Below the pieces are notes generated by a model, which saw only the letters and a list, made by a program, of their open reading frames with translations, searched no databases and had not been told where the DNA came from. Below are positions 8,685 to 28,776 of a DNA stretch of 49,004 nucleotides, in pieces. Where the stretch lies: assembly GCA_947503115.1 (NCBI GenBank), contig CANNCS010000014.1, positions 1 through 49,004 of the forward strand. The letters run 5' to 3'. Numbering within the stretch: position 1 is the first letter of the stretch; each line of letters starts with the position of its first letter. Source of the DNA: an uncultured Marivita sp. Its GTDB lineage: Bacteria > Pseudomonadota > Alphaproteobacteria > Rhodobacterales > Rhodobacteraceae. The translations under genes were made by a program, and so were the position numbers.

Positions 8685-8686
8685 AT
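8663..8686. promoter_or_regulatory. ArsR-type operator palindrome
   Basis: ATATTTCG-N8-CGAAATAT is a perfect 8-bp inverted repeat. It covers the predicted -10 element and reaches into the start codon of the ArsR-ArsC fusion gene. The position suits autorepression relieved by arsenite, as is usual for ArsR proteins. Confidence 0.6.
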
Positions 8687-9533: not shown

Positions 9534-10528
9534 CCACATACGCGCTGAACGGGCTTGGCCGCATTGGCAAGCTTGCCCTTAAACCCTTGTTAGAGAAGGG
9601 CGCGAAAATTGCGTGGATCAATGACGCGGTGGGTGATCCTGAGATGCACGCGCATCTGTTCGAATTCGACACCGTGCACGGGCGTTGGAATGCCGCGTTT
9701 TCGCATGACGCCGACAGCATCACCATCGACGGTGCGCGCCTGCCGTTTGTGGGAACATCTGACCTGTCGGCGTTGCCGATGGACGGTGTCGATGTGGTGA
9801 TTGACTGCACCGGTGTTTTTAAAACGGAGGCGAAGATCGCGCCCTATTTTCAAATGGGAGCGAAGAAAGTCGTGGTTTCAGCCCCGGTCAAGGACGGGCC
9901 GACGGCGAATATCGTTTTTGGTGTGAACGACGACATCTATAATGCTGAAACCCATGACATCGTGACGGCGGCAAGCTGTACGACCAATTGCTTGGCGCCG
10001 GTTGTGAAGGTATTGCACGAAAATATTGGCATAAGTCACGGATCAATAACGACGATTCATGATGTCACAAATACGCAAACCATCGTCGATCGCCCCGCAA
10101 AAGACCTGCGCCGTGCGCGGTCGGCATTGAATTCCCTGATCCCGACAACCACGGGCAGCGCCACGGCGATCACTCTGATTTATCCCGAACTCAAGGGGCG
10201 GTTGAACGGTCACGCGGTGCGCGTGCCGCTTCTGAACGCGTCGCTGACTGATTGCGTGTTCGAGATGGACCGCGCGACCACCGTGGAGGAAGTGAACGCA
10301 CTGTTCCAGGCGGCGTCTGAAGGCGGGCTCAAGGACATTCTGGGCTATGAAGAACGCCCGCTCGTGTCGACGGATTACACCAACGATACGCGGTCGACCA
10401 TTGTTGATGCGCAGTCCACCATGGTGGTGAATGGCACGCAGGTGAAAGTCTATGCGTGGTATGACAACGAGATGGGCTATGCGCACCGTTTGGTGGATGT
10501 CGCGCTGATGGTGGGCGGTCGGTTGTGA
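9530..10528 (+). CDS. ArsJ-associated glyceraldehyde-3-phosphate dehydrogenase
   Basis: A 332-aa GAPDH with the NAD-binding start [13 protein letters not shown] and the catalytic SCTTNCLAP motif (Cys150). In arsJ operons this enzyme uses arsenate in place of phosphate to form 1-arseno-3-phosphoglycerate, the substrate ArsJ exports. Placement between an arsenate-handling protein and arsJ, with 4-bp overlaps on both sides, supports that role rather than central glycolysis. The N-terminus is slightly divergent from housekeeping GAPDH ([16 protein letters not shown]). The sequence alone does not exclude ordinary GAPDH activity. Confidence 0.9.
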
Positions 10529-11787
10529 GCAAACCCGAAGGTCTTTCCGCCTATATCGCTGTCACAGCGGCGTATTGGGCGTTCATGCTGACCGATGGTG
10601 CCTTGCGAATGTTGGTGCTCTTGCACTTTCACACGCTTGGTTTTTCGCCGATTCAGTTGGCGTATCTATTCGTCCTCTATGAGATCGCCGGGATGGTCAC
10701 GAACCTGAGTGCCGGATGGATCGCGGCGCGGTTTGGCCTGACCTCCACGCTTTATGCAGGGCTTGGTTTGCAGGTGGTGGCGCTTTTGGCGCTGGCGCAG
10801 TTGGACCCATCTTGGGCCATCACCGCCTCGGTCGCCTTTGTCATGTGTGTGCAGGGTGCGTCGGGCGTGGCCAAAGATCTTGCCAAGATGTCTTCCAAAT
10901 CGGCGGTCAAGCTTCTCGCCCCGACTGAAGGTGGCGGGCTGTTCCGCTGGGTCGCGGTTCTGACCGGATCAAAGAATGCGGTAAAGGGGGTAGGGTTTCT
11001 GCTGGGGGCCGCACTTTTGGCGATGCTGGGATTTGTCGCGGCGATCTACGCGATGGCGGCTGTGCTGGCGGTGATCCTGCTTGCAATCATCATGTTCATG
11101 CCGTCGGGCCTGCCGAAAGGGCGTAAGGGCGCGAAGTTCTCGGACGTGTTTTCCAAGTCCGCCAACGTGAACTGGCTGTCAGCGGCGCGGGTGTTCCTGT
11201 TTGGCGCGCGCGATGTGTGGTTCGTTGTGGGTATCCCGATCTACTTCTATGCGGTGCTGTCGGACGGAACCGAAGCGGGCAACCGCGCGACGTTTTTCCT
11301 GATTGGGACGTTCATGGCGGTTTGGATCATCCTGTATGGAATCGTGCAGGCGAACACGCCAAAGCTTTTGCGGGCGGCAGAGCGGAGCGAAGGTGCGCTA
11401 ATCGCGGATGCTCGGAAGTGGGCTTTTCTGTTGTTGACGGTGCCTGTGGCGTTGACTGTCGCGGCGGTGTTGTCGCCGGCGCCACAGATGTGGCTGACAG
11501 TGACTTTGGTGGTCGGGTTGTTGGTTTTCGGTGCGCTGTTCGCCATTAATTCGGCGCTGCATTCCTACCTCATCCTTGCTTTTACCCAAAGTGAACGGGT
11601 TACGATGGATGTCGGGTTCTACTACATGGCCAATGCCGGTGGGCGGCTGTTGGGGACGGTTCTGTCCGGCCTAAGCTATCAGGTGGGCGGGTTGCCATTG
11701 GTGCTGGGCACGGCATCCGTGATGGTGGCCTTGGCTGCGATGGCGGCGGGGCGGTTGCGCAGTGAAGCTGTGGGGCAGACGGTTTAG
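10525..11787 (+). CDS. arsJ: Organoarsenical efflux MFS transporter ArsJ
   Basis: A 420-aa major facilitator with about 12 hydrophobic segments. The N-terminal stretch [20 protein letters not shown] and the region around [19 protein letters not shown] are characteristic of ArsJ. The family exports 1-arseno-3-phosphoglycerate, which breaks down to arsenate outside, giving net arsenate efflux. The GTG start at 10525 overlaps the TGA of the GAPDH gene. No arsB, acr3 or arsM is present in the window, so this operon handles arsenate by the organoarsenical route plus reduction. Confidence 0.9.
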
Positions 11788-12999: not shown

Positions 13000-13925
13000 C
13001 CGATCACACCACAACCCATGACGCTGAAGAGGACGCCCGTAACCGCGATATTCTTATCTACATCAATGGAGAGCTTTTCCCGCGCGAGGACGCAAAGGTG
13101 TCGGTCTACGATTCTGGGTTCCTGTTGGGTGATGGCATGTGGGAAGGAATGCGCCTTTATGACGGCGTTTGGGCATTCTTTGACGAACACATGGATCGGT
13201 TTTTCGACAGCTGCTACGCGGTTGGCCTTGATGTCGGAATGGACCGCGACGGGATTGCCGAAGCGCTGCGGATAACGGCAGAGGCAAACGGAATGACCAC
13301 GGATGTGCATTGCCGGTTGATGTTGACGCGGGGCACCAAGGTGAAACCGTTCCAGCATCCGAGTTTGTCCCGGTCGGGGCCGACTCTGGTGATCATCATG
13401 GAGCATTCAAAACCCGCTCAGACCTTGCAGGCGCAGGGTATTCGGTTGGCCTCGGTCCCACAGGTGCGGGGGCTGCCGCACAGTCAGGACGCCAAGTTCA
13501 ACAGCCATTCCAAACTGAACTGTGTGATCGCCTGCCTTCAGGCCGAGGCGGCAGGGGCAGACGAGGCGTTGATGCTTGACCCGCATGGGTTTGTGAACAC
13601 CGCAAACGCCTGCAACTTCTTCATTGTGCGCAAGGGCGAGGTTTGGACCTCGACCGGGGACTATTGCATGAATGGAGTCACGCGGCAGAAGGTGATCGAC
13701 CTGTGCCGCGAAGATGGGATTCCGGTGTTCGAGAAGAATTATTCGCTTTACGAAGCGTATTCAGCGGATGAGGCGTTTCTGACCGGGACGTTTGGGGCGC
13801 AGACGCCGGTGGCGTCGATTGATGGCAAAACAATTGGATCAGTTGATCGCGCGCTGACGCACCGTATCCGCGCGCTCTATAAAGAGGCGATTGCCAAGGA
13901 TATCGCAGCCCACAAGGCGGGTTAG
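12996..13925 (+). CDS. Class IV aminotransferase (branched-chain / D-amino acid type)
   Basis: A 309-aa PLP enzyme of fold type IV. The N-terminus (YINGELFPREDAKVSVYDSGFLLGDGMWEGMR) and the segment DAKFNSHSKLNCVIACLQA, which carries the presumed PLP lysine, place it in the family of IlvE, D-amino acid transaminase and aminodeoxychorismate lyase. The C-terminal LTGTFGAQTPV resembles the cofactor-phosphate region. About 20 extra N-terminal residues precede the first strand. It is translationally coupled to the upstream iron-type dehydrogenase and convergent, with a 4-bp overlap, with the DUF3237 gene. Substrate and stereospecificity are unknown. Confidence 0.85.
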   Translation: MTDHTTTHDAEEDARNRDILIYINGELFPREDAKVSVYDSGFLLGDGMWEGMRLYDGVWAFFDEHMDRFFDSCYAVGLDVGMDRDGIAEALRITAEANGMTTDVHCRLMLTRGTKVKPFQHPSLSRSGPTLVIIMEHSKPAQTLQAQGIRLASVPQVRGLPHSQDAKFNSHSKLNCVIACLQAEAAGADEALMLDPHGFVNTANACNFFIVRKGEVWTSTGDYCMNGVTRQKVIDLCREDGIPVFEKNYSLYEAYSADEAFLTGTFGAQTPVASIDGKTIGSVDRALTHRIRALYKEAIAKDIAAHKAG

Positions 13926-14386
13926 GTGATCGCATAAAGTTCGACTTGAACGCTGCTTTGGTTTCGAGCTCCGACACCAATAAAGAGCGTGCGGTTGACC
14001 CAATCATATCGCGGGTCGCCAGTTTCAAGCCGGGCATGGGTGCGCATGTAATAGGAGGCGGGATCTACGGGTTCGCCGCGTGCCACGGCCTCCAGCACAT
14101 CTTTAGGGCCGTGGCGGAAGCCGTAATTGACGATTTCGATGGTCGCGCCGTCGTCGGTTTCCATCGCGTAGCGCGTGTCGAGCTCGGCCAGGCCATCGGC
14201 AAATAGCGTCTGCCAATCCGCGCCGATATTTAAGATGCGCCCAGTGATGCGCGGTCCGGTGACGGTGCCGCCAACGATTGGTATGATGCGCCGAGCCCCG
14301 GCGCGGCCTGCACCCATTTCACGTATCGGATCAAGCGACACGTTGAGAGTGCAGACGTGATCGAGCTTGGGCTGTGGCAGTATCAT
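13922..14386 (-). CDS. DUF3237 family protein
   Basis: A 154-aa protein matching the DUF3237 pattern: a small beta-barrel with LNVSLDPIREMG, then GRRIIPIVGGTVTGP-like residues, the GADWQ segment and a tail ending in a WVNRTLFIGVGAR motif. No signal peptide or membrane segment is visible. The biochemical role of the family is not established. The gene is divergent from the MarR regulator (78 bp between starts) and shares that promoter region, so it may belong to the hydroxycinnamate regulon. Confidence 0.75.
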   Translation of the reverse strand: MILPQPKLDHVCTLNVSLDPIREMGAGRAGARRIIPIVGGTVTGPRITGRILNIGADWQTLFADGLAELDTRYAMETDDGATIEIVNYGFRHGPKDVLEAVARGEPVDPASYYMRTHARLETGDPRYDWVNRTLFIGVGARNQSSVQVELYAIT

Positions 14387-14403
14387 CGAGACCCTTTCGA
14401 TTA

Positions 14404-14414
14404 TAAACTGTTTA
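14404..14414. promoter_or_regulatory. Candidate MarR operator (TAAAC-N-GTTTA)
   Basis: A perfect palindrome, TAAAC-T-GTTTA, in the 78-bp gap between the divergent DUF3237 and MarR genes. A related TAAAC-G-GTTTT occurs at 23253-23263 between the crotonase and amidohydrolase genes. A second imperfect 17-bp repeat (TGTT to AACA, 14409-14425) overlaps it. Confidence 0.45.
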
Positions 14415-14464
14415 CTAGATTAACAATATGGGATATTTGTCCCGACGACAACAGGAGATGGCCC

Positions 14465-14941
14465 ATGGCATCGCTGCGCAAGACCAACCGGCAGACCGAA
14501 GACGAGACCCTTGTGGAAACGCCGGACCTTGAGGAGTTCATCGGCTACAATCTGAAACGTGCCTACGTGATCGTACAAGCGGATTTCAGGCGTGCGCTGG
14601 GTGAAGACGGCTTTGCGCCACGCGTGTTTTCGGCGCTTTCTTTGGTCGTGCAATACCCGAACGTGACGCAAAGCGGTCTGGCGCGGATGCTTGGAATCGA
14701 ACGCTCGGGTCTTGTGGCCATTGTCGATGAACTGGAAGGGCGTGGTCTTCTGAAGCGGACCAATGTGCCGGGGGATCGCCGTGTTCAGGCATTGGTTCCC
14801 ACAAATGCCGGTGCCAAGGCCTATGCCGATGCGCGTGCTGCGGTGCGGTCACATGAGGAACGGCTTTTGTCCAATTTGAATGACGACGAGAAAGCAACAC
14901 TGATGTCGCTGCTTGCGAAAATAAGAGCCAGTGAGGTGTGA
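14465..14941 (+). CDS. MarR-family regulator of hydroxycinnamate catabolism
   Basis: A 158-aa MarR regulator. It has a helix-turn-helix with VTQSGLARMLGIERSGLVAIVDELEGRGLL and the wing RTNVPGDRRVQALVPTNAG. The ATG at 14465 has AGGAG 7 bp upstream; the open frame continues to 14357, but that stretch is the promoter. Beside a hydroxycinnamoyl-CoA ligase and a short-chain dehydrogenase, it fits CouR/PhdR/FerR-type repressors, which release DNA on binding the aryl-CoA thioester. That ligand is inferred from family and context. Its stop overlaps the start region of the following gene. Confidence 0.88.
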   Translation: MASLRKTNRQTEDETLVETPDLEEFIGYNLKRAYVIVQADFRRALGEDGFAPRVFSALSLVVQYPNVTQSGLARMLGIERSGLVAIVDELEGRGLLKRTNVPGDRRVQALVPTNAGAKAYADARAAVRSHEERLLSNLNDDEKATLMSLLAKIRASEV

Positions 14942-14943
14942 CG

Positions 14944-15711
14944 ATGCAGGACTGGGCCGGTTGTGGTGCAATTGTTACCGGAGGGGCATCTGGCTTGGGG
15001 GCTTCGACGGCTCGGCGTTTGGCCGAGGACGGGTTGAAGGTCACATTGTTCGACATGAATGCGGAGCTGGCCTCTGAACATGCCGCTGCCATTGGTGGGA
15101 CATTCGCGCATGTAGATGTGAGTGATCCTGCGTCGGTGGCCGCGGGTCTGGACATCGCGGTTGCTGCAAACGGTGTGCCTCGGGTTTTGGTGAATTGCGC
15201 GGGCATTGGCAGTGCTGCCAAGACAGTGTCACGGGGCGTGCCGCATGATCCGGACATGTTCGACCGCACCATTCGGGTGAATTTGATTGGCAGCTTTAAC
15301 TGCGCAAGCCAAGCCGCCGCACGCATGGTGGCCTCTGATCCGGTGGGGGCTGATGGCGCGCGTGGTGTCATTATCAATACGGCTTCCGTCGCGGCGTTTG
15401 ACGGGCAGGTGGGTCAGTTGGCCTACGCCGCGTCCAAAGGTGGGATCGCTTCGATGACCTTGCCGATGGCGCGCGACCTGGCGAACAAGGGCGTGCGCGT
15501 CTGTACGGTTGCGCCTGGCCTTTTCATGACACCGATGCTGCATGGTTTGCCAGAAGAGGTGCAGGTGTCCCTTGGGGCGCAGGTGCCGTTCCCGACGCGT
15601 TTGGGCGATCCGGCGGAATACGCCGCGCTGGTTTCCCACATTGCGCGGAACTCGATGTTGAATGGTGAAGTGATCCGCCTTGACGGCGCGATCCGCATGG
15701 CACCGCGATAA
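14944..15711 (+). CDS. Short-chain dehydrogenase, beta-hydroxyacyl-CoA type
   Basis: A 255-aa SDR. It has the GxxxGxG motif TGGASGLG at the N-terminus, NCAGIG, the catalytic Ser of NTASVAAFDGQ and YAASK. It resembles type II 3-hydroxyacyl-CoA dehydrogenases (HSD10-like): a PGLFMTPML loop and the ending NGEVIRLDGAIRM. In cou/phd-type clusters the SDR (CouN, PhdB) oxidises the beta-hydroxy-aryl-propionyl-CoA to the beta-keto thioester, and I infer the same here. ATG 14944 has GAGG upstream; a GTG at 14938 is possible. It sits between the MarR gene and the CoA ligase, in the same direction. Confidence 0.85.
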   Translation: MQDWAGCGAIVTGGASGLGASTARRLAEDGLKVTLFDMNAELASEHAAAIGGTFAHVDVSDPASVAAGLDIAVAANGVPRVLVNCAGIGSAAKTVSRGVPHDPDMFDRTIRVNLIGSFNCASQAAARMVASDPVGADGARGVIINTASVAAFDGQVGQLAYAASKGGIASMTLPMARDLANKGVRVCTVAPGLFMTPMLHGLPEEVQVSLGAQVPFPTRLGDPAEYAALVSHIARNSMLNGEVIRLDGAIRMAPR

Positions 15712-15733: not shown

Positions 15734-17521
15734 ATGAACATCAAGACAGATTTGATCGGCAGTGATTTCTGGAGTCCGGAATTCGAGATCGAAACCCGCG
15801 ACGATGGTACGATTGTCATGCGCCAAGCGGATGAGCTTACAGGCTATCTTCCCACATTGGCGGACTATCTCGACAAATGGGCCGATCAAACGCCGGATCA
15901 GCCATGGATTGCCCGGCGAGGGGCGGACGGCGAGTGGGTGCGCATCACCTACGGGACAGCCCGGGACCAGGCCCGTCGCATTGGGGGCGCGCTGCTGTCA
16001 TTGGGGCTGGGGCCGGACCGGCCGTTGTTGATCCTGTCCGAAAACAGCCTTGAACACGCGTTGTTAGGGGCCGCGTGTTTCTACGTCGGTATCCCTTATG
16101 CACCGGTGTCTCCGGCCTATTCGCTTGTGTCGAAGGATCATGGCAAGCTGAGGGATATTGCAGCGACGCTGAACCCCGGTGCGATCTTTGCCGATCGCGC
16201 AGCCGCATTTGCTCCGGCATTGGAAGCGATTGCGGCTGACGGCCGTTACGTGCTCGCCGTGCAAGATGTGATAGGCGGGGCAATTCTGTTTGACGATCTG
16301 TTGAACGGTGACGCGGAATTGGCCAAAAAGGCCCGTCGTGACGTGAATTCCGACAAGGTTGTGAAGTACCTCTTCACATCCGGATCGACCGGATCACCTA
16401 AAGCGGTGATCAACACCAATGGCATGATCTGCGCGATGGAGGCGATGGTTCGGGATTGCTATCGCTTTCTGACCAAGACGCCCCCGATTGTGTTGGATTG
16501 GGCACCGTGGAACCATACGGCTGCTGGTAACAAGGTGTCGTATCTCGTGCTGACCAACGGTGGCACCTATTATATTGACGACGGCAAACCAGCGCCGGGC
16601 AAGTTTGACGAAACCTTGCGCAATCTGCGGGATGTGTCCTGCACATGGTATTTCAACGTGCCCATTGGGTGGGACATGTTGATCGACAAGCTTGAGCAGG
16701 ATGCCGATCTGGCAGAGACCTTTTTCAAGGATCTCAAGATGATGTTCTATGCCGGGGCAGGCATGGCGCAGCACACGTGGAACCGTTTGCGCACCATCGG
16801 ACGCAAGACCACCGGGCACGAAGTGCTGTTGGCCACGTCGCTTGGTGCAACGGAAACCGCGCCTTTTGCGTTGGCTTGCACGGAAGTTCAGGACAAGTCC
16901 GGTAACGTCGGTGTGCCGTCTCGTGGTTTGCTGCTCAAACTGGTGCCGAACAGTGGCAAGTTGGAGTTGCGCCTTAAAGGACCGAGCATCACGCCGGGGT
17001 ATTACGGTGATCCGGAAAAAACCCGTCAAGCCTTTGACGAAGAGGGTTACTATTGCATGGGCGATGCGCTGCGCCCCGCGGACCCGGATGATCTGAGCAA
17101 GGGCTTCTTTTTCGACGGGCGCGTGGCCGAAAACTTCAAGCTGAACACGGGCACTTGGGTTGCGGTGGGTTCGGTCCGCGCATCGTTGGTGGATGCGATG
17201 GATGGGTTGATCCGCGACGCGGTGATCACAGGCGAGAACGAAGCCGAACTAGGGGCGTTGGTGCTGCTGTCCGAGCGCGCAGCCAAGATGGATGAGGCGG
17301 ATTTGACTGCGGCATTGGGCGAAAGGCTGGCGCAAGCCGCGAAGTCTGCGACAGGGTCGGCCAGCCGCGTTCGGCGCATTTTTGTGCTGACCGAAGCACC
17401 GAGTTTCGACAAGGGCGAGATCACTGAAAAGGGGTCTTTGAACCAGCGGGCCATGCGCGCAAACTTCGCGGATGCCGCTCGCCATTTGCACATCGGTGGC
17501 CCGGGCGTAATTTCGGTCTAA
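15734..17521 (+). CDS. Feruloyl/p-coumaroyl-CoA synthetase-like ligase
   Basis: A 595-aa ANL-superfamily adenylating enzyme. The P-loop is YLFTSGSTGSPKAVINT, followed by DWAPWNHTAAGN, the NVPIGWDML segment, the ATSLGATETAP motif and GYYCMGDALRP. The WxPWNHT and NVPxGW patterns are typical of the feruloyl-CoA synthetase subgroup. It would activate a hydroxycinnamate with ATP and CoA. ATG 15734 lies behind GGGGGAG. It is the third gene of the MarR-SDR-ligase set and meets the sulfatase tail to tail with a 9-bp gap. Whether p-coumarate, ferulate or caffeate is preferred cannot be read; pobA downstream favours p-coumarate. Confidence 0.85.
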   Translation: MNIKTDLIGSDFWSPEFEIETRDDGTIVMRQADELTGYLPTLADYLDKWADQTPDQPWIARRGADGEWVRITYGTARDQARRIGGALLSLGLGPDRPLLILSENSLEHALLGAACFYVGIPYAPVSPAYSLVSKDHGKLRDIAATLNPGAIFADRAAAFAPALEAIAADGRYVLAVQDVIGGAILFDDLLNGDAELAKKARRDVNSDKVVKYLFTSGSTGSPKAVINTNGMICAMEAMVRDCYRFLTKTPPIVLDWAPWNHTAAGNKVSYLVLTNGGTYYIDDGKPAPGKFDETLRNLRDVSCTWYFNVPIGWDMLIDKLEQDADLAETFFKDLKMMFYAGAGMAQHTWNRLRTIGRKTTGHEVLLATSLGATETAPFALACTEVQDKSGNVGVPSRGLLLKLVPNSGKLELRLKGPSITPGYYGDPEKTRQAFDEEGYYCMGDALRPADPDDLSKGFFFDGRVAENFKLNTGTWVAVGSVRASLVDAMDGLIRDAVITGENEAELGALVLLSERAAKMDEADLTAALGERLAQAAKSATGSASRVRRIFVLTEAPSFDKGEITEKGSLNQRAMRANFADAARHLHIGGPGVISV

Positions 17522-17530
17522 ACGTGCAGA

Positions 17531-19180
17531 TCAGTTTGGGCAGCCGACGGGTTTTAGGCTGTCGAAGGGTTTGCCTGTTTCGGCCTCGTATTCCTGTTCA
17601 TCCCAGAACCCAATGAGGATACCGACATCGGCCGCAACTTTCTGGCCCTCGAGCACCTGCGGTGTGGCAGTGATCCTTGTGTGATGCCGCGTGGCCCAGT
17701 CGAGAAGGGCACCTTCCATCCGGGCACGGACTGCTTGATGTTCTGGCAGGTCTGACGCGCCCAGATCGGTCAGTTCCTGCGGGTCGGTTTCCAGATCGAA
17801 CAGAATTGGACGAAAGGTTTCGCACCGGATGTATTTCCAGCGCCCGTCAAAGATCATTTTGGTGTGTGCATGTTCCTGCGGGACGCCAAGGGATCGCGCC
17901 ATTTCGGACCAGTGGTAGTCATGTTCACTGATCGCATATTGGCGGGAAAATCCTTCGGCACCGTGCAAAATCGGCGTCAGGTCGCGGCCTTCGAGGACGT
18001 ACGGTTTCGGAACACCTCCGACGGCTGACAGGAAGGTCGGTGCAAGGTCGATCATCTCGACCAGCGCGTCAGACACCAGTCCGCGGGTTGCGTTGGCTTG
18101 GGGGCGTGGATCGTAGAGGATCAAAGGCACTTTTACCGCCACGTCGTGGTAGAAATCCTTGTCACCCATCCAATGGTCGCCCATGTAATCGCCGTGATCC
18201 GAAGTGAAGGCGATGATGGTGTTCTCGGCAACGCCTGTGTCGGTCATCCATTGGAACAGGCGCCCCAGATTGTCGTCCAACTGTTTGATCAGTCCCATAT
18301 ACGCCGGGATCACATGGTCGCGTACGTTATCCCGCGCAAAGCTGCGGCAAACGCGGGCGTTCAGGTAGGCTTGCATCAGGGGGTGGTCGGTGGCGCGTTC
18401 CAAGTCGGAACGCACCGGATCGATGATGTGCCGTTCATCGTACATATCGTGGTACGGCGCAGGCACGATATAGGGCCAGTGTGGCTTGATATAGCTAAGG
18501 TGGCAGACCCACGGCTGGCCGTCTTTTTGTGCCGCTTGCATGAAGTCCATCGCCCGGTTGGTCATGTAGGCTGTCTCAGAGTGTTCCTCGGGTACGTTTG
18601 CCGCAAGCCGGGAGTTCTTGAGCAACCACGCAGAGAGCAATTCGCCATCGGCATCGACACCGGAATTGGCAAAATCCCCCCATGGGTTGTCCGAGGAATA
18701 CCCGTGCGCCACAAGGTAGTCGTCATAGGCGGACCAGCTTTGTCGCGCACTGTCGGGGTGCAGGCCGTCATCGCGTTCGAAGAGTTCAAATCCGCATTCG
18801 GCGCGGCGCACTCCGATTTCGCTATTTGGATCGATCCCCAACCACGCCATGCCTTCGGCGTCAGCCTTCATATGCGTCTTTCCCACCAACACCGCGCGTG
18901 ATCCTGCCTCGCGCAGGTGATCGCCCAAGGTCGGTTCGCCTATGCGCAGGGGCATGCCGTTCCAGGTTGATCCGTGGCTGTGCACATAGCGTCCGGTATA
19001 GGCGGACATGCGCGACGGTCCACAGACGGGCGATTGCACGTAGGCATTGGTAAAGCGCACTCCGCGCTGGGCGAGGGCGTCAATATGAGGTGTGTGCAGG
19101 TGCGGATGGCCGTAGCAGCTCAGGTAATCGAAGCGCAGCTGATCTGCCATGATCCAAAGGACGTTGGGACGGTCTGACAT
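17531..19180 (-). CDS. Sulfatase (alkaline phosphatase superfamily), cytoplasmic
   Basis: A 549-aa type I sulfatase-like hydrolase. The formylglycine motif CGPSR (C53 to R57) is followed by MSAYTGRYVHSHG; the N-terminal VLWIMADQLRFDYL supplies metal-binding Asp, and FTSDHGDYMGDH a further metal site. There is no signal peptide: the first beta-strand begins at residue 5, so the enzyme should be cytoplasmic and its substrate imported. It lies between the ligase and a TRAP operon of a hydroxycinnamate cluster, so a sulfated phenolic is a plausible substrate. Phosphonate monoester or choline-sulfate hydrolysis are alternatives within this superfamily. No formylglycine-generating enzyme is in the window. 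Confidence 0.82.
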   Translation of the reverse strand: MSDRPNVLWIMADQLRFDYLSCYGHPHLHTPHIDALAQRGVRFTNAYVQSPVCGPSRMSAYTGRYVHSHGSTWNGMPLRIGEPTLGDHLREAGSRAVLVGKTHMKADAEGMAWLGIDPNSEIGVRRAECGFELFERDDGLHPDSARQSWSAYDDYLVAHGYSSDNPWGDFANSGVDADGELLSAWLLKNSRLAANVPEEHSETAYMTNRAMDFMQAAQKDGQPWVCHLSYIKPHWPYIVPAPYHDMYDERHIIDPVRSDLERATDHPLMQAYLNARVCRSFARDNVRDHVIPAYMGLIKQLDDNLGRLFQWMTDTGVAENTIIAFTSDHGDYMGDHWMGDKDFYHDVAVKVPLILYDPRPQANATRGLVSDALVEMIDLAPTFLSAVGGVPKPYVLEGRDLTPILHGAEGFSRQYAISEHDYHWSEMARSLGVPQEHAHTKMIFDGRWKYIRCETFRPILFDLETDPQELTDLGASDLPEHQAVRARMEGALLDWATRHHTRITATPQVLEGQKVAADVGILIGFWDEQEYEAETGKPFDSLKPVGCPN

Positions 19181-19252
19181 ACTGCACTCGCGTTGTGGGG
19201 GTCATGGAGCCTAGATGTGCCGTAGCGACGGGGCGCTGTCCAGCGTCAGGGC

Positions 19253-19287
19253 GTCCCCTGCGCCATGGGGACCATGGCGCTAGGGAC
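19253..19287 (-). terminator. Strong stem-loop after the TRAP operon
   Basis: GCGCCATGG (19260-19268) pairs perfectly with CCATGGCGC (19272-19280) around a 3-nt loop. GTCCC (19253-19257) pairs with GGGAC (19283-19287) beyond a 2x2 internal bulge. It begins 5 bp past the dctM stop and before the sulfatase start. There is no T-tract, so it may be an mRNA-stabilising or partial-termination hairpin. Confidence 0.5.
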
Positions 19288-19292
19288 ACAGG

Positions 19293-20621
19293 TCACAACG
19301 CGTCGATAACCCAGACCAGCCAGAGCGTGATTGGCGGGAAAGCTGCAAGGATCACCACGCGCACCATGTCGGTCAGGACAAAGGGAAGGGCGCCTTTGTA
19401 GGTCTGGCCAATGGGCGTTTCCTTTGCCATCGAATTGATGATGAAAAGGTTCATCCCCACTGGCGGTGTGATCAACCCAACCTCGACCACGATGAGGACA
19501 AGGATGCCGAACCAGAGACCGAAATCGTTGACGCTCATCCCGAAGTCGAGGATGGACATGATCGGGAAGATGATCGGGACGGTCAGCAGGACCATCGAGA
19601 GGCTGTCCATTACGCAGCCGAAGACTAGGTACATGATAAGCACAATGGTCAGCACGAACCATGGTGAGAAGCCTTGATCCCCGACCCAGACTGACGCGGT
19701 TTGTGGCAGTTGGGTCAGCGAGAGGAAGTTATTGTAGATGCCTGCGCCAAGGATGATGAGGAAAATCATCGCCGAGGAGGCGGCAGTCGACAGTATCGCT
19801 TGGTTGAGCTTGGACCAGTTCATCTGTCCCGAAGCCAAAGCAACGAGCCCGGTTCCCGCCGCGCCGACAGCGGCGGCCTCGGTCGGGGTGAAGATGCCGG
19901 CATAGATGCCGCCCACAACCGCGACGAAGATCAGGATGACGGGCCAGACCTGACCCAGTGCCTTCATCCGCTGGCCCCACGGCACGCGGTCTTTGACGGC
20001 TGCGCTATTGGGGGACATGCGGACCCACACGGAGATTGCGATCATATAGCCAATGGCGGCAAGAATGCCGGGGATCAGCGCGGCGACGAACAGTTTTTCG
20101 ATATTCTGCTCGGCAAGAATAGCGTAAATCACAAGGATCACTGAGGGCGGGATCAAGATGCCCAAGGTGCCCCCAGCCGCTAAAGCACCGGTTGCCAGTG
20201 ACCCCGGGTAGCCATAGCGACGCAATTCGGGCAGGGCGACCTGTCCCATCGTGGCGGCGGTGGCCAGCGACGATCCGCAGATTGCGCCGAACCCGGCGCA
20301 CGCGCCTACTGCCGACATGGCGACGCCGCCCTTGCGGTGACCAAGAAAGCTTTCGGCGGCGCGGAACAGGGCTGCGGACATGCCGGACAGGGTCGCAAAT
20401 TGGCCCATCAGCAGAAACAGCGGGATGATCGAAAAAGAATAGTTGGAAAACGTGCCATACGTTAGCGTTTTCAGTTGGTTCAGTGTCATCATCGACGACC
20501 CGATCACCAGATATGTGCCGCCAACGCCGACACCGATCATTGCCAATGCAATAGGTGCCCGCAGGAAGACGAGGATCAGAAGAACGGGAAAGGACCAGAG
20601 CGCCAGTTCGATATTCGTCAT
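19293..20621 (-). CDS. TRAP transporter large permease (DctM type)
   Basis: A 442-aa membrane protein with about 12 hydrophobic segments. The DctM features are LRAPIALAMIGVG near the N-terminus, the GACAGFGAICGSSLATAATMGQ core, GILIPPSVILVIYA, and VGLITPPVGMNLFI near the C-terminus. It forms the sodium-coupled channel subunit of a tripartite transporter. It is the last gene of the dctP-dctQ-dctM set on the minus strand, 12 bp after dctQ. Context points to aromatic acid uptake, as in the TarPQM coumarate system of Rhodopseudomonas, but the membrane subunit does not reveal the substrate. Confidence 0.92.
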   Translation of the reverse strand: MTNIELALWSFPVLLILVFLRAPIALAMIGVGVGGTYLVIGSSMMTLNQLKTLTYGTFSNYSFSIIPLFLLMGQFATLSGMSAALFRAAESFLGHRKGGVAMSAVGACAGFGAICGSSLATAATMGQVALPELRRYGYPGSLATGALAAGGTLGILIPPSVILVIYAILAEQNIEKLFVAALIPGILAAIGYMIAISVWVRMSPNSAAVKDRVPWGQRMKALGQVWPVILIFVAVVGGIYAGIFTPTEAAAVGAAGTGLVALASGQMNWSKLNQAILSTAASSAMIFLIILGAGIYNNFLSLTQLPQTASVWVGDQGFSPWFVLTIVLIMYLVFGCVMDSLSMVLLTVPIIFPIMSILDFGMSVNDFGLWFGILVLIVVEVGLITPPVGMNLFIINSMAKETPIGQTYKGALPFVLTDMVRVVILAAFPPITLWLVWVIDAL

Positions 20622-20633
20622 ATGATGTGGTTC

Positions 20634-21191
20634 CTAGTCCGGCAGTCCGGCCATGCGCCGCCCGGAGCGCAGCACGCAAAAGGCGGCAACGATGATGAAC
20701 CCCATCGCACCAAGCAGGCTGGCGGCATAGCCTTGCCAGACCGGGATCTGCGCGATCAGGGTGGTTTCGCCGAAAGACAGTTTGTCCTGCATGCCAAGAT
20801 ACAAGCGCCATGTTCCGACGGCCGCGACCAACAGCATGGCAAGGTTGAAGGCGAGGTCCAGAAACCGATCCATAGACTTGGGCATGATCGGTTGGAAGAG
20901 GTCGACGCGGGCGTGTGCTTCGCTCAGTTGCGCCCAAGGCAGGAACGCAAAGATCGCGGCCGCCATTCCGATTTCTGTCATGTCATAGATTCCGCGGATC
21001 GGGCCAAGGCCGATGTCCAAAGGGACCAACGCGCGGCCGATGATGGAAACGCAGGTCAGCACGATCAGGCACAGAAGCACAAACCCACCCGCGATCGCCA
21101 GTACGCGGGCAATGAATTCGACAAGGTTCTGAAGTCGCCGATACATGCCATTCTCCTTCGCGGAACAGTGGGCCGCTGTGACACGGCCCAT
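20634..21191 (-). CDS. TRAP transporter small permease (DctQ type)
   Basis: A 185-aa protein with four predicted membrane segments. The middle region AQLSEAHARVDLFQPIMPKSMDRFLD matches the DctQ family signature (W.EAHARVD pattern). It partners the large permease. It lies between dctP (22 bp gap) and dctM (12 bp gap), clearly co-transcribed. Confidence 0.9.
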   Translation of the reverse strand: MGRVTAAHCSAKENGMYRRLQNLVEFIARVLAIAGGFVLLCLIVLTCVSIIGRALVPLDIGLGPIRGIYDMTEIGMAAAIFAFLPWAQLSEAHARVDLFQPIMPKSMDRFLDLAFNLAMLLVAAVGTWRLYLGMQDKLSFGETTLIAQIPVWQGYAASLLGAMGFIIVAAFCVLRSGRRMAGLPD

Positions 21192-21213
21192 TGCTATCTG
21201 CTGTTCGAAATCG

Positions 21214-22251
21214 TTAGCCGCCGTGCTTGGCGATCAGCGATTTGGCCTGTTCGATCAGGGCTGCGCCGTCGATGCCCTTGGCGTCCATATCGGCGATCCA
21301 GCGGTCGATCACCGGCTGGGAAGCTTCTTTCCAGCGGGCAACTTCGGCTTCATCGAGTTGCACGATAGTGTTGCCAGCGTTCACGGCGATTTCGCGCGCC
21401 GGGGCATCCATATCCCACATCACTTGTGTGGCGAACGCCGAAAGCTTTGCGCCGGATTCCGCGTCAATGATCGCACGCAGATCGTCGGGCAAGGCTTCGT
21501 ACTTGGCCTTGTTCATCACCAGAACGATGGCTGCGGTGTAAAGCGACTCGTCGCCTGTGAATTCTGTGTGGTTGCTCACCAGTTCCGAAAGGCGGATTGC
21601 GGTGGTCACCTCCCACGGGATCACGGTCGCTTTGACGACGCCCTTGGACAGCGCCTCGGGGATCGCTGGGAGCGGCATGCCCACGGGTTCTGCGCCCAGT
21701 TCAGCCATCAGGTCGTTGATGATCCGGGTCGGGCCACGCAAGGTTAGCCCATCCATGTCCTCAAGGTTGGTCACGCCATCGGCTGAGTGGATCACTCCGG
21801 GGCCGTGGACCCACGCGCCCAGAACCTTCATGTCCTTGTATTCGTTGTTCTGGAAATCGGTCTCGACCATTTCCCAATAGGCTTTGGCGGTCGCGACCGG
21901 ATTTGTCATCATGAACGGCAATTCGAACACTTCGGTGCGCGGGAAGCGGCCGGGGGTATAGCCCACAACGGTCATCGCGAGATCGACCACGCCGTCACGT
22001 GCCTGATCCATCAATTCGGGCGGACGACCGCCAAGCGACATGGCGTCGAAATGTTCGATCTTGATGCGGCCACCAGAGGCCTCTTCGACCATCGCGCCCC
22101 AAGGCTTCAGGATCTGTGCGGGCACTGGCGCGGGTGGCGGCAGGAACTGGTGCAGGCGCAGTGTCACGTCCTGCGCATAAGCCGCGCCGGACACCGTGAG
22201 TGCAGTGGCGGCGCCAAGTAGCGCGCTTTTTACAAAGCTTCTTCTCTTCAT
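21214..22251 (-). CDS. TRAP substrate-binding protein (DctP type)
   Basis: A 345-aa periplasmic binding protein. The signal peptide is MKRRSFVKSALLGAATALTV, ending SGAAYAQ with cleavage near residue 26; its RR start is weakly Tat-like. The body carries the DctP features MSLGGRPPELMDQARDGVVDLAM and LTLRGPTRIINDLMAELGAEP, where the Arg of LRGP normally contacts a substrate carboxylate. A carboxylated ligand is therefore expected, consistent with a hydroxycinnamate or a sulfated derivative. A 172-bp gap separates it from the upstream crotonase gene, so it may also have its own promoter. Confidence 0.9.
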   Translation of the reverse strand: MKRRSFVKSALLGAATALTVSGAAYAQDVTLRLHQFLPPPAPVPAQILKPWGAMVEEASGGRIKIEHFDAMSLGGRPPELMDQARDGVVDLAMTVVGYTPGRFPRTEVFELPFMMTNPVATAKAYWEMVETDFQNNEYKDMKVLGAWVHGPGVIHSADGVTNLEDMDGLTLRGPTRIINDLMAELGAEPVGMPLPAIPEALSKGVVKATVIPWEVTTAIRLSELVSNHTEFTGDESLYTAAIVLVMNKAKYEALPDDLRAIIDAESGAKLSAFATQVMWDMDAPAREIAVNAGNTIVQLDEAEVARWKEASQPVIDRWIADMDAKGIDGAALIEQAKSLIAKHGG

Positions 22252-22423
22252 GGTAAATCCTCCCAGATTTGTTGGTTATTTCGGTGTTTCTTGACGAACA
22301 CTCCGATGCATTAGATATTTTCCTCTGCAGAACGGAATGTCTCCACTGGTCAGGTGGTGGTAGAAACGTGCATCTCCATTTTCCCTCATGCCACGGTTCA
22401 AAGATCGACCAAGTCCCTCCGTC

Positions 22424-23212
22424 TTACTTTCTGAAAACCGGTTCGCGCTTTTCGAGAAAGGCTCGCAGACCTTCTTTTGCGCCCTCCGATGTTTGACACA
22501 TCGCGGCGGCAAGGCTTTCGGTGAAAAGACCGTCCGACCGTGACATGTCGCCGATCCGCGCCAAGGCGTTGATCATCAGGTAATTTGAGAAGGGTGCGTT
22601 GTCAGCGATCTTGCGGGCCAGTTTTTTCGCCAATTCAAGCCCTTCGCCTTCGCCAACTGAGTAATGCGCGAGGCCCAGCGAAACGGCGTCTTCGGCCCCG
22701 TAATTTCGTCCGGTCAGCATCATTTCACGCATGCGATCAGGGCCGATGATGCGGCCAACTCGCACGGTTGCGCCACCTCCGACAAAGATGCCGCGGCGGC
22801 CCTCGGGCAGTTGAAAGCGGGCGGTGGGTTCGGCGATCCGCACATGCGTCGAGGCTGCGATTTCCAAACCGCCGCCGATCACCGCTCCGGTCAGAACCGA
22901 GATCACGGGCAGGCCGCCGAATTCGATCAATTCGGACACGCGGTGCCAGTTGCGGGAATGGTGAACGCCTTCGACCGGGGCGCGGTGTTCGTGTTCCTCA
23001 AGGTCCAAGCCAGAGCAGAAGTGCCCACCTTCTCCGCGTAGGATCACGGCGTTCACACCTTCGGGTGGATGGGAAAAGAACTGGTCCAGATCGTCGATCA
23101 GCGCATCATTCATCGCGTTACGCTTTTCTGGGCGATCAAATATCAGCGTTGCAATGTCACCGTCGATTTCGACACGTGTGACCGCGCCGGAGCGAGCTGC
23201 GCCATCGTGCAT
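22424..23212 (-). CDS. Enoyl-CoA hydratase/crotonase family protein
   Basis: A 262-aa crotonase-fold enzyme. The first oxyanion-hole region is GEGGHFCSGLDLEEHEHR, the second GAVIGGGLEIAASTHVRIAEPTARFQLPE. In the catalytic region the E of the ARFQLPEGRRGIFVG segment is a candidate acid-base residue. ATG 23212 has GGAGG 5 bp upstream. In the inferred pathway it hydrates the hydroxycinnamoyl-CoA double bond (CouM/PhdE role). A hydratase-lyase (Ech) forming an aldehyde is the alternative, but no aldehyde dehydrogenase is nearby. It is divergent from the amidohydrolase gene (102 bp). Confidence 0.87.
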   Translation of the reverse strand: MHDGAARSGAVTRVEIDGDIATLIFDRPEKRNAMNDALIDDLDQFFSHPPEGVNAVILRGEGGHFCSGLDLEEHEHRAPVEGVHHSRNWHRVSELIEFGGLPVISVLTGAVIGGGLEIAASTHVRIAEPTARFQLPEGRRGIFVGGGATVRVGRIIGPDRMREMMLTGRNYGAEDAVSLGLAHYSVGEGEGLELAKKLARKIADNAPFSNYLMINALARIGDMSRSDGLFTESLAAAMCQTSEGAKEGLRAFLEKREPVFRK

Positions 23213-23220
23213 GTGATCCT

Positions 23221-23289
23221 CCCCAATCTTTCGATTAGATTTGTTGTATATGTAAACGGTTTTGCTGTATAGCGTTTTTTAGATTGGGG
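23221..23289. promoter_or_regulatory. Divergent promoter flanked by 9-bp inverted repeat
   Basis: CCCCAATCT (23221-23229) and AGATTGGGG (23281-23289) are perfect inverted copies 51 bp apart, framing an AT-rich centre. Each arm sits close to the ribosome site of one of the two divergent genes (crotonase and amidohydrolase). The TAAAC-N-GTTTT motif at 23253-23263 lies near the middle. Confidence 0.45.
23253..23263. promoter_or_regulatory. Second candidate MarR operator (TAAAC-N-GTTTT)
   Basis: TAAAC-G-GTTTT matches the perfect palindrome at 14404-14414 except for its central and last bases. It is central in the crotonase/amidohydrolase divergent promoter. Sharing between two promoters of the same pathway is what one regulator would need; binding itself is inference. 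Confidence 0.4.
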
Positions 23290-23314
23290 TATTTCATACG
23301 TCGGGAGGACGATC

Positions 23315-24211
23315 ATGGTCGATTTTTCTAAGGTCCAAGCCATTGATTTTCATACGCATGCGGAAGAGCCCTGCAATCACGGCCGGGATGATGGGTATAA
23401 TGAATTCCAGTCCGGCATGGCCGCTTACTTCAAGAATCCGGCAGGCGCAGAGGGTATGTTGCCGACGGTTCAGGACACCGCAGATTACTACCGCGAGCGC
23501 AACATTGCGGCTGTGATCTTTCCGGTTGATGCCGAACGCGAAACTGGATTTCGCCGCTATTCCAACGAAGAAGTTGCCCAGCTTTGCGCCGAGAATGACG
23601 ATATCCTGATCCCGTTTGCCTCGATTGATCCGCACAAAGGCAAGGCTGGTGCGCGGGAGGTGCGGCGACTGGTGCGCGAGTTTGGAGTGCGTGGCTTCAA
23701 GTTCCACCCGACGATGCAGGGGTTTTTCCCCAATGACCGCGAAGCGTGTTACACCGTGCTTGAAGCTTGTGCCGAGGAAGGCGTGATCACCTTGTTCCAC
23801 ACCGGTCAGACAGGGGTAGGATCTGGTATGCGCGGGGGCATGGGTATGCGGCTCAAGTATTCGAACCCGATGCATCTGGACGATGTGGCGGTCGATTTCC
23901 CAGACATGCCGATCATTCTCGCGCATCCAAGTTTCCCCTGGACCGAAGAGGGATTGGCCGTCGCGCAGCACAAGCCGAATGTCTATTTCGATATGTCTGG
24001 ATGGTCGCCGAAATACTTTCCGGAGATCTTCATCAAATACGCCAATTCGATCCTGAAGAAGAAGATGCTGTTCGGATCAGATTGGCCTGCCATCACTCCG
24101 GACCGTTGGCTTAAGGATTTTGCCGATGCGCCTTTCAAGGACGAGGTGCGACCTCTGATCCTAAAGGAAAATGCGATGCGTCTGCTGGGTGTTACGGACA
24201 AGAGCGCCTGA
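23315..24211 (+). CDS. TIM-barrel amidohydrolase, probable beta-keto-aryl-CoA hydrolase
   Basis: A 298-aa amidohydrolase-2 family protein. The metal-binding HxH is in AIDFHTHAEEP (H13 and H15), with further ligands likely in GFKFHPTMQGF, ILAHPSFPW and LFGSDWPAI (terminal Asp). The family includes gamma-resorcylate decarboxylase and ACMSD, but in the cou and phd clusters its members (CouO, PhdC) cleave the beta-keto-aryl-propionyl-CoA hydrolytically to hydroxybenzoate and acetyl-CoA. Company with a CoA ligase, crotonase and SDR makes that role likely here. It overlaps no gene but sits 3 bp from the acyl-CoA dehydrogenase start. Confidence 0.82.
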   Translation: MVDFSKVQAIDFHTHAEEPCNHGRDDGYNEFQSGMAAYFKNPAGAEGMLPTVQDTADYYRERNIAAVIFPVDAERETGFRRYSNEEVAQLCAENDDILIPFASIDPHKGKAGAREVRRLVREFGVRGFKFHPTMQGFFPNDREACYTVLEACAEEGVITLFHTGQTGVGSGMRGGMGMRLKYSNPMHLDDVAVDFPDMPIILAHPSFPWTEEGLAVAQHKPNVYFDMSGWSPKYFPEIFIKYANSILKKKMLFGSDWPAITPDRWLKDFADAPFKDEVRPLILKENAMRLLGVTDKSA

Positions 24212-24214
24212 TCC

Positions 24215-25733
24215 ATGACCGATTTCATCGCGCCGACGGATGATATTCTGTTTTCCCTAAGGCACGTGGCTGACGCGCGTCGCGTCGACGGCTGGGACGA
24301 TGGGCTGGCTTCTGACATCCTTGGACATTTCGCACAGTTTGCCGAAGGTGTTCTGGCGCCGCTGAACGCGATTGGCGATGAGCAGTGCGCACGGTTGGTA
24401 GATGGTCGTGTCCTGATGCCCGACGGGTTTCGCGACGCCTACGCCCAGCTTGCGGAAGGTGGATGGCAGGGTTTGCGCGCACCAGAACGGTTCGGTGGTA
24501 TGGATCAATCCGCGCTTGTTGCGTCGGGTGTGTCCGAGGTGTTTACCGGAGCCAATCATGCCATGCAGATGGTTTGCGGGCTTGTGCCGGGCGCAATTGA
24601 GACGCTGCTGCATTTCGGTACGGTAGACCAGCAAGAGGCTTGGATTCCGCGTCTGGCCTCAGGCGACGTGTTGTCTACCATGTGCCTGACCGAGGCAGGC
24701 GCAGGCTCTGATTTGTCGGGCATTCGGTGCAAGGCGGTGCGAGATGGTTCAGACTGGCGGCTGGACGGGGAAAAAGTCTTCATCTCCGGTGGCGATCAGA
24801 ACATGTCGTCGGGCGTGCTGCATCTGGTGCTTGCCCGCAGTGGGTCTTTGGAGGACGGGCTGAAAGGTCTGTCGCTGTTCCTGTGTTCGGCGGGTCAGGG
24901 TGTGACCGTCACGAGGATTGAGGAAAAGCTGGGGCTGCATGCATCTCCGACCTGTCAGTTGGCGTTCAGCGGTGCCCATGCAGAACTGATTGGGGTCGAG
25001 GGCGATGGCCTGCGGGCCATGTTCACAGTGATGAACCACGCGCGCCTTGATGTGGCGTTACAAGGTGTCGCCCATGCCGCGCGCGCATCGCAGATTGCCA
25101 CGGCCTACGCTCAAGACCGTGTGCAAGGGCGTCGCAAGGATGGCAGCCCGGCGCGGCTGATTGACCATTCGGATGTGCAACGGATGTTGGCAGAGCAATC
25201 GTCGTTGGCAATCGGCGCACGCGCGATGTGCCATGTGGCATTTGTTGAGTTGGAGCGCAGCGACCGGCCGGACCTCGTGGCGTTTCTGACCCCTTTGTGC
25301 AAAGTGTTCAGCTCGGAAGCGGGGATCAAGGCGGCTGATCTGGGGATTCAGATCCTAGGTGGATATGGGTATTTGAACGAATACCAAATGGGGCAGGTTT
25401 GGCGCGATGCGCGGATCACCTCAATCTACGAGGGCGCCAACGGCATCCACGAACGTAGCATAGCCACGCGGGGTCTGAAGGGACCAGGGGCGGATCAGTT
25501 TGTAGATTTGGTTCAAGAGCTTGGTGGTGCATCTGACATAGTTCGCTCCGATCTTGCCACATGGGTCGAATGGCGCGACCGTATGCGTATGACCGACGAT
25601 TCGGAGCGTGAGGCGCATGGTTTTGCGCAAGCGACGGCGTGGCTGCTCTTCCGCGCGTGCTGGGCCAAATGCGCTTTGGTCGCCGACCTGCATCCTGATC
25701 CCACGCGGATCAAAACTTTGGCCGAGCGGGTTC

Positions 25734-25744
<11 letters not shown>
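24215..25744 (+). CDS. Acyl-CoA dehydrogenase
   Basis: A 509-aa flavoprotein. The ACAD signatures are STMCLTEAGAGSDLSGIRCKAV, GEKVFISGGDQNM and QILGGYGYLNEYQMGQVWRDARITSIYEGANGIH, where the Glu of YEGANGI is the usual catalytic base. It is longer than typical ACADs, with an N-terminal extension of about 50 residues as in the FadE5/AidB-like large subgroup. It follows the amidohydrolase directly. A matching dehydrogenase (PhdD) in the phd cluster is thought to unsaturate dihydro-phenylpropanoyl-CoA, so dihydrocoumarate may also feed the pathway. The 3' end overlaps pobR by 11 bp. Confidence 0.88.

Positions 25745-28776
<3,032 letters not shown>

Follow-up and report, generated by a model that had tools for sequence, protein, structure and literature searches.

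A sulfatase gene stands inside a cluster of phenolic-acid genes in a 49,004-nucleotide stretch of DNA from an uncultured Marivita sp. (contig CANNCS010000014.1, positions 1 to 49,004; the window hereafter). We consider it fairly probable that this gene encodes an intracellular aryl sulfatase that frees imported sulfated phenolic acids, and that it arrived as a module with a TAXI-type TRAP importer and a MarR regulator, both of which were later lost. The reading is carried by the enzyme type, the module found in relatives, the conserved operator-like sequence within it, the empty and occupied sites in the genus, and the purifying selection on the gene. In the proposed mechanism, a sulfated phenolic acid would be imported and desulfated inside the cell by the sulfatase, and the free phenol would then be degraded by the surrounding CoA ligase/hydratase/PobA pathway. 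The sulfatase would have entered the cluster in a module in which the TAXI-TRAP importer is divergent from a MarR-sulfatase operon, with the sequence TRTGACTTGTCACG between the two. The window lineage would have lost the importer, regulator, and operator and kept the sulfatase, and present import would proceed via TarPQM, the adjacent TRAP system, or via another carrier.

Enzyme type and cellular location

17531-19180, minus strand: SpAS-type, predicted cytoplasmic arylsulfatase of 549 amino acids, CGPSR motif with C53 (Pfam, PDB matches, and a 102-row alignment)

The protein, a class I sulfatase, matches the Pfam model PF00884 at 162.6 bits (cut-off 25) and carries the formylglycine motif C53-G-P-S-R57, which is of the CxPSR type. 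The open frame around the gene spans 556 amino acids, that is, seven codons 5' of the ATG, and the alignment with the PDB entry 4upi starts from residue 2; hence, there is no space for a signal peptide. These features support a cytoplasmic sulfatase, and a periplasmic one was ruled out since a signal peptide does not fit 5' of the fold. An earlier note, made from the letters of the window alone, had described a CxPSR sulfatase without a signal peptide, and the motif at residues 53-57 and the 556-residue frame agree with that description.

The top PDB matches, both nearly full length, were 4upi (688 bits), which is SpAS1, an arylsulfatase of Silicibacter pomeroyi, and 4upl (662 bits), which we take to be SpAS2. 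According to the available part of PMC5488252, two active-site positions set phosphonate monoester hydrolases (PMHs) apart from these arylsulfatases: SpAS1 has K101/H103 where RlPMH has Y105/T107, and sulfate ester hydrolysis works best with His at position 103. K101 and H103 are present in the window sulfatase, with the same numbering as in SpAS1, and are invariant in all 102 aligned rows, as are D13, Q14, C53, S56, R57, K232, H234, D328, H329, and K341. By analogy to Asp14, Asp296, and His297, given as metal-binding residues of SmCS in PMC5870055 as far as that source was available, D13, D328, and H329 are probably metal ligands. The near full-length match, the active-site set with K101/H103, and the predicted absence of a signal peptide are shared with the dimeric arylsulfatases SpAS1 and SpAS2, and on these sequence features the window enzyme is assigned to the SpAS1 type. 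In contrast to SpAS1 and SpAS2, the window enzyme falls in a tree clade of its own, at 53-64% identity to the SpAS-like loci used in the comparison, and belongs to a defined module; a further locus, L132, is 72% identical and groups with the clade of the window enzyme.

An arylsulfatase rather than a choline sulfatase or a phosphonate hydrolase, in line with the earlier note, is backed by both K101/H103 and the model scores. The choline sulfatase BetC belongs to the same superfamily, but its model (TIGR03417) scored 204.9 bits against a cut-off of 433.45, so that a choline sulfatase appears unlikely; choline-O-sulfate was not hydrolysed by SpAS1 or SpAS2, as stated in the portion of PMC5870055 at hand. 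A phosphonate monoester or phosphodiester hydrolase (PMH/PehA) is the least probable of all readings, since PehA, the top-scoring NCBIfam model, gave 289 bits, far under its cut-off of 900, and K101/H103 stand in place of Tyr and Thr or Asp. The genome holds two other PF00884 proteins, a true BetC on C30 (899 bits) and a PehA-like protein (387 bits, under the cut-off); the motif is CGPSR in the window and C60 copies and CAPGR in the BetC of C30.

The ratio of nonsynonymous to synonymous substitutions (dN/dS) between the window sulfatase and eight relatives was 0.055-0.074 by a simple Nei-Gojobori count, which is a rough value because dS was 0.78-1.32. The reading frames and active-site residues are intact in the nine cluster copies of the genus, and the sulfatase is under purifying selection.

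The TAXI-TRAP/MarR/sulfatase module and its site in Marivita

A genome scan gave 381 stretches encoding sulfatase relatives, of which the best 80 were used. Module genes were counted by tblastn in the 74 of these 80 loci with at least 4.9 kb upstream (L085, L089, L090, L098, L106, and L109 were left out), and genus loci recorded twice were counted once. The tree and the alignment contain 102 rows, without the second sulfatase copy of L118. In 43 of the 74 loci, the sulfatase is accompanied by a MarR regulator and by both TAXI-TRAP components, the permease and the binding protein; in one further locus only part of the TRAP set was detected, five loci have MarR alone, and 25 have neither TAXI nor MarR. 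Where the module is present, the genes of the TAXI binding protein and permease are divergent from those of MarR and the sulfatase, and the MarR stop overlaps the sulfatase start in the genomes G300 and G306. In the locus L037, the permease matches TIGR02123 at 342 bits (cut-off 320.65) and is a fused permease, the TAXI binding protein matches PF16868 (NMT1_3) at 65.7 bits (cut-off 27), and the match of its regulator to a MarR model is the basis for the name of the module MarR. The fused permease and the NMT1_3 binding protein are shared with TAXI-type TRAP transporters; the window genome, in contrast, is without this importer. The predicted structure of the TAXI binding protein had a mean pLDDT of 64.3 and was not used for fold searches.

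The operator-like sequence TRTGACTTGTCACG, a near-perfect inverted repeat (GTGAC-TT-GTCAC), is located between the TAXI binding protein and MarR genes (e.g., L037:9048-9189). Of 47 divergent regions (46 from the 80 loci plus L132), 44 carry it unchanged, and the other three (L062, L092, L106) have one mismatch. Sites within two mismatches of the pattern TATGACTTGTCACG were found by scan in 43 of the 47 regions, and in the remaining four the sequence was present where the MarR start had been placed too far upstream. At one mismatch or fewer, 47 sites occur in the 80 loci; 44 lie in the module, and the other three lie directly before MarR-sulfatase pairs with no detected TAXI genes (L089, which is a short contig, L091, and L097). 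The exact pattern occurs twice in the 17 genus genomes, once in each full-module genome. From the sequence, we infer that MarR would bind TRTGACTTGTCACG.

TRAP genes also stand near sulfatases outside this clade. Of 18 full-flank loci with more distant sulfatases (identity 53-64%, or 72% for L132), 7 have a TAXI- or TarPM-like gene within 1.5 kb, and none has one at 5 kb or more. The corresponding counts for the closer clade, with the Marivita hydroxycinnamate cluster set aside, are 34 of 51 and 8 of 51; divergent TRAP genes would escape this count in both distance zones.

Within the genus, 11 of the 17 genomes have the sulfatase at 80% identity or more, and 10 have a tarM ortholog at 95% or more. 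Absence of the sulfatase from the clusters of related genomes had been named in the earlier note as a sign against its reading; the sulfatase stands beside tarM in nine of the ten genomes. In G296 and G301, it is 80-83% identical and located at other sites. The one site exists in three states, empty in one genome, occupied by the full module in two, and by the sulfatase alone in seven, the window included. L038, from Marivita cryptomonadis, has a sulfatase-only site.

17522-19292, strand not applicable: stretch missing from the empty site of G309; G300 and G306 hold the full TAXI-TRAP/MarR/sulfatase module there (genome comparison)

At the empty site, tarPQM is present, and the distance from the CoA ligase to tarM is about 50 bp. 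The sulfatase is accompanied by the CoA ligase in the window, G298, and G299, and lacks it in G295, G303, G307, and G308, where a ligase of 73-76% identity is located elsewhere. The sulfatases at the nine occupied sites group in a single clade (SH-aLRT 98), and the simplest history is a single insertion with subsequent loss of the importer and regulator. Searches of the window genome found no close TAXI binding protein (the best match to the L113 copy had 27% identity and 20 bits), no module MarR (best 26%, 42 bits), and no exact operator-like sequence.

Phenolic-acid genes, substrate, and rival explanations

The genes around the sulfatase are as follows.

13922-14386, minus strand: DUF3237 protein, of a family that also joins the sulfatase module elsewhere (profile search)
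14357-14941, plus strand: MarR-like regulator of the hydroxycinnamate cluster, not the MarR of the module, start uncertain (by eye, listed open reading frame)
14938-15711, plus strand: short-chain dehydrogenase (SDR) of the hydroxycinnamate cluster (profile search)
15734-17521, plus strand: AMP-binding acyl-CoA ligase, probable hydroxycinnamate-CoA ligase (PRK12582 best, 655 bits, under the cut-off of 777)
19293-20621, minus strand: TarM-like TRAP large permease (TIGR00786 above cut-off)
20634-21191, minus strand: TarQ-like TRAP small permease, start uncertain, no NCBIfam match (from place and conservation)
21214-22251, minus strand: TarP-like DctP binding protein (PF03480, PDB relatives)
22424-23212, minus strand: crotonase-family hydratase (profile search)
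23315-24211, plus strand: amidohydrolase, PF04909 (profile search)
24215-25744, plus strand: acyl-CoA dehydrogenase-like protein (profile search)
26678-27847, plus strand: PobA-like 4-hydroxybenzoate 3-monooxygenase (by eye)

The tarPQM genes (19293-22251) lie upstream of the sulfatase on the same strand, and the CoA ligase (15734-17521, plus strand) converges on it; the gene order thus agrees with the earlier placement of the sulfatase inside a hydroxycinnamate cluster adjoining TRAP genes. Two relatives matching the window PobA at 60-63% exceed the TIGR02360 cut-off, the window copy itself being read by eye, and Pca genes were recognised by eye in the wider cluster. The SDR, CoA ligase, crotonase, amidohydrolase, acyl-CoA dehydrogenase, PobA, and Pca set fits hydroxycinnamate breakdown.

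Twelve of the 102 tree rows stand beside hydroxycinnamate or 4-hydroxybenzoate genes, which requires at least four changes on the sulfatase tree. The four lineages are the Marivita clade; L050, with crotonase, amidohydrolase, and PobA near the sulfatase and PcaGH by eye; L053 (Pelagimonas), with a TAXI module and a full phenolic cluster at 42-70% identity; and L085, with the SDR at 73% and PobA at 60% identity. At a rough expectation of about 1% per lineage, taken from a 40-kb target in a 4-Mb genome with no control loci, about one such linkage is expected. These counts support an association of the sulfatase with phenolic-acid genes across several lineages. The DUF3237 family points in a similar direction: it is rare (16 copies in 61 genomes), stands next to TAXI genes in 8 of 44 loci, seven times on the same strand, and directly follows the TAXI permease in, for example, L068:5511-5954, L084:5422-5868, and L101:5503-5958. 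In the available part of PMC12607616, PinX has a DUF3237 domain and resembles the decarboxylases PhcF and PhcG, and deletion of pinX leads to accumulation of lariciresinoate; by that source, the family includes decarboxylases of lignin-dimer breakdown.

We infer the order of insertion and loss, import via TarPQM or another carrier, and sulfated phenolic acid as the substrate class. The comparison with relatives makes sulfated phenolics of plants or algae a probable food source, and use as a carbon source is likelier than sulfur scavenging because seawater is sulfate-rich. Zosteric acid is a good candidate, but as the main substrate it is a guess, which the computed data do not tell apart from other aryl sulfates such as those of ferulate and 4-hydroxybenzoate.

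Several findings weigh against the proposed uptake and desulfation of phenolic sulfates. No formylglycine-generating enzyme (PF03781) turned up in the genome; for the anaerobic maturase, the model scored 65 bits against a cut-off of 349, and the radical-SAM matches were only weak, which leaves the maturation of C53 in the host unexplained. Pairing with TAXI genes is often broken: 25 of 74 loci lack both TAXI genes and MarR, and the TAXI binding protein switches between present and absent at least 16 times over the sulfatase tree (98 of the 102 rows, without L085, L089, L090, and L109). As to the linkage to phenolic-acid genes, the branches placing L050, L053, and L085 have SH-aLRT values of only 81-94, the loci had already been inspected when rows were marked as hydroxycinnamate-linked for the tree count, and in 61 of the 80 loci nothing within the stretch examined matches any of eight phenolic-cluster genes from the window at 50% or above. 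The CoA ligase is gone from four of the nine occupied genus sites. Comparison of TarP between six sulfatase-only genomes and G300, G306, and G309 (G298 left out) gave no fixed differences and hence no sign of adaptation to a sulfated ligand. Finally, co-transcription of the sulfatase with tarPQM is unsure because the stretch separating them holds a hairpin and a box resembling a promoter.

On the first of these points, an unrecognised maturation route is possible. By a hand count that takes 149 genomes as G000-G148, 66 have a sulfatase relative at E 1e-60 or better (a few of them probably PMH-like), and 28 of those 66 have no PF03781 match. The motif in the 102 relatives is CGPSR in 87, CGSSR in 11, and CGASR in two, and was not properly read in two. 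E. coli also forms formylglycine by an unknown enzyme, as reported in the accessible text of PMC5870055.

Among the rival explanations, the one that survives best is a different aryl sulfate, such as sulfated hydroxybenzoates or flavonoid, tyrosine-type, or indoxyl sulfates, with the cluster serving as a convenient insertion site. Relatives of the sulfatase also stand beside other aromatic genes, namely the phenylacetate genes paaZ, paaG, and paaK (L119:10485-15182) and a salicylyl-CoA 5-hydroxylase cluster (L042:706-7782), both with no control, and pobA at about 5 kb (L126, L085), and the module is self-contained. However, at least four tree changes lead to the hydroxycinnamate or 4-hydroxybenzoate setting, and the sulfatase occurs in nine of the ten genus clusters; we regard this rival as somewhat unlikely.

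The version of the earlier note, in which TarPQM imports zosteric acid and the sulfatase delivers p-coumarate to the adjacent CoA ligase, appears unlikely. Its basis is the carrier: the window binding protein is 53% identical to the coumarate-bound TarP_Sse, its best relatives are 7nr2 by sequence and 7nr2/7nra and 5im2 by structure, and crystal structures of TarP relatives hold coumarate and cinnamate, which supports a hydroxycinnamate binder as judged from the closest relatives. The carboxylate-contact Arg region pointed out earlier is kept, with the Arg of the LRGP stretch (R172) invariant in nine of nine aligned sequences; its contact role is suggested by analogy to Arg149 (mature numbering) of Rhodopseudomonas palustris TarP, the carboxylate-contact residue in the available part of PMC3610893. 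In addition, the sulfatase is retained without the TAXI importer at seven of the nine occupied sites, and eelgrass extracts contain zosteric acid together with p-coumarate, caffeate, and ferulate (PMC6389981, in the part available), a source that cites another study for in vivo release of p-coumarate from zosteric acid by a sulfatase. However, G309 has tarPQM without the sulfatase, and so TarPQM is not a dedicated importer of the sulfatase substrate; in most other places the companion of the sulfatase is another TRAP importer, of the TAXI type. The absence of fixed TarP changes also speaks against this version, and so does the nanomolar Kd of R. palustris TarP for free coumarate, ferulate, and caffeate (PMC3610893, same portion), by which the carrier is explicable without a sulfated ligand. 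Compared with TarPQM of R. palustris, TarP_Sse (7nr2/7nra), and TarP_Csal, the window differs in having a sulfatase gene after tarM, and the window ligand is a predicted one. A literature search by title and abstract start returned no study of a bacterial sulfatase acting on zosteric acid, a weak absence as subscription journals are mostly outside the search.

A functionless passenger gene left by the insertion is highly improbable: the window genome has lost the module's regulator, importer, and operator-like sequence, and a maturase was not found, but the dN/dS values and the intact frames and active sites of the nine genus copies speak against it.

The proposed intracellular desulfation of imported phenolic sulfates by a former module enzyme keeps part of the earlier interpretation, namely the cytoplasmic arylsulfatase, the hydroxycinnamate-type TRAP binder, and the phenolic link, and drops TarPQM as the own importer of the sulfatase; it is the module context in relatives that changes the reading. 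More tentatively, a mobile uptake-desulfation module may be common to marine Roseobacters and their relatives, composed of a TAXI-TRAP aryl sulfate importer, an SpAS-type cytoplasmic sulfatase, an optional decarboxylase-like DUF3237 enzyme, and MarR with TRTGACTTGTCACG, and may plug into different aromatic clusters; in Marivita its target would have been the hydroxycinnamate cluster, where it would have given access to zosteric acid and similar sulfates of seagrass or algae as food, with the sulfatase kept and the rest shed. The literature search by title gave no report of TAXI-type transport of sulfate esters (coverage is thin for subscription journals, a weak absence), and, by title and abstract start, none on a sulfatase-TAXI pair (again a weak absence, with such journals mostly outside).

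SpAS-type sulfatases have served as models of enzyme promiscuity with model substrates, and the available parts of PMC5870055 and PMC5488252 name no natural, physiological substrate. This question becomes testable because an importer, a regulator, and an operator-like sequence are conserved beside the sulfatase; the TAXI binding protein and MarR should recognise its substrate or product. If that is a sulfated phenolic acid, it would explain how coastal bacteria recycle the sulfated phenolics of seagrass and algae, and would give a function to a group of TAXI transporters.

The tarM-sulfatase gap and neighboring genes

19181-19292, minus strand: gap between tarM and the sulfatase, with a hairpin and a box (by eye)
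19260-19280, strand not applicable: perfect 9-bp inverted repeat GCGCCATGG-3-CCATGGCGC within the gap (repeat search)

As read by eye, the hairpin directly 3' of tarM is variable in sequence and has no T run, with its stem kept in relatives, and the box CTGGACAG...CGGCACATCTAGG before the sulfatase start is alike in relatives and is possibly the own promoter of the sulfatase. The repeat search that gave 19260-19280 allowed three mismatches, at which 16 of 100 shuffles also gave a match. Consensus scans of 17400-23400 gave one promoter-like site versus 2.2 expected, which does not lie before the sulfatase, and four terminator-like sites versus 5.1 expected. A remnant of the TAXI/MarR genes or of their promoter in the gap was rejected, as in all 16 comparisons the local alignment score failed to exceed the top score among 30 shuffles. 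No 8-mer common to the sulfatase gap and two hydroxycinnamate intergenic regions was found in more than one of seven genomes.

Some further features were observed around the sulfatases. In L085, a SulP-family sulfate permease (PF00916; L085:3096-4673) is located directly 3' of the sulfatase and could handle the released sulfate. The divergent region between the crotonase and amidohydrolase genes (23213-23314) contains TGTTGTA-N4-TAAACGGTTTTGYTGTATAGC in nine genus genomes by eye, possibly the site of the hydroxycinnamate regulator. Farther upstream in the window, 8685-11787 encodes, as read by eye, a GAPDH, an MFS protein, and an ArsR regulator joined to a domain like that of low-molecular-weight phosphatases, a set that resembles the GAPDH/ArsJ arsenate-export operon. 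The GAPDH and MFS genes adjoin the cluster in nine of the ten genus genomes with tarM, the exception being G298.

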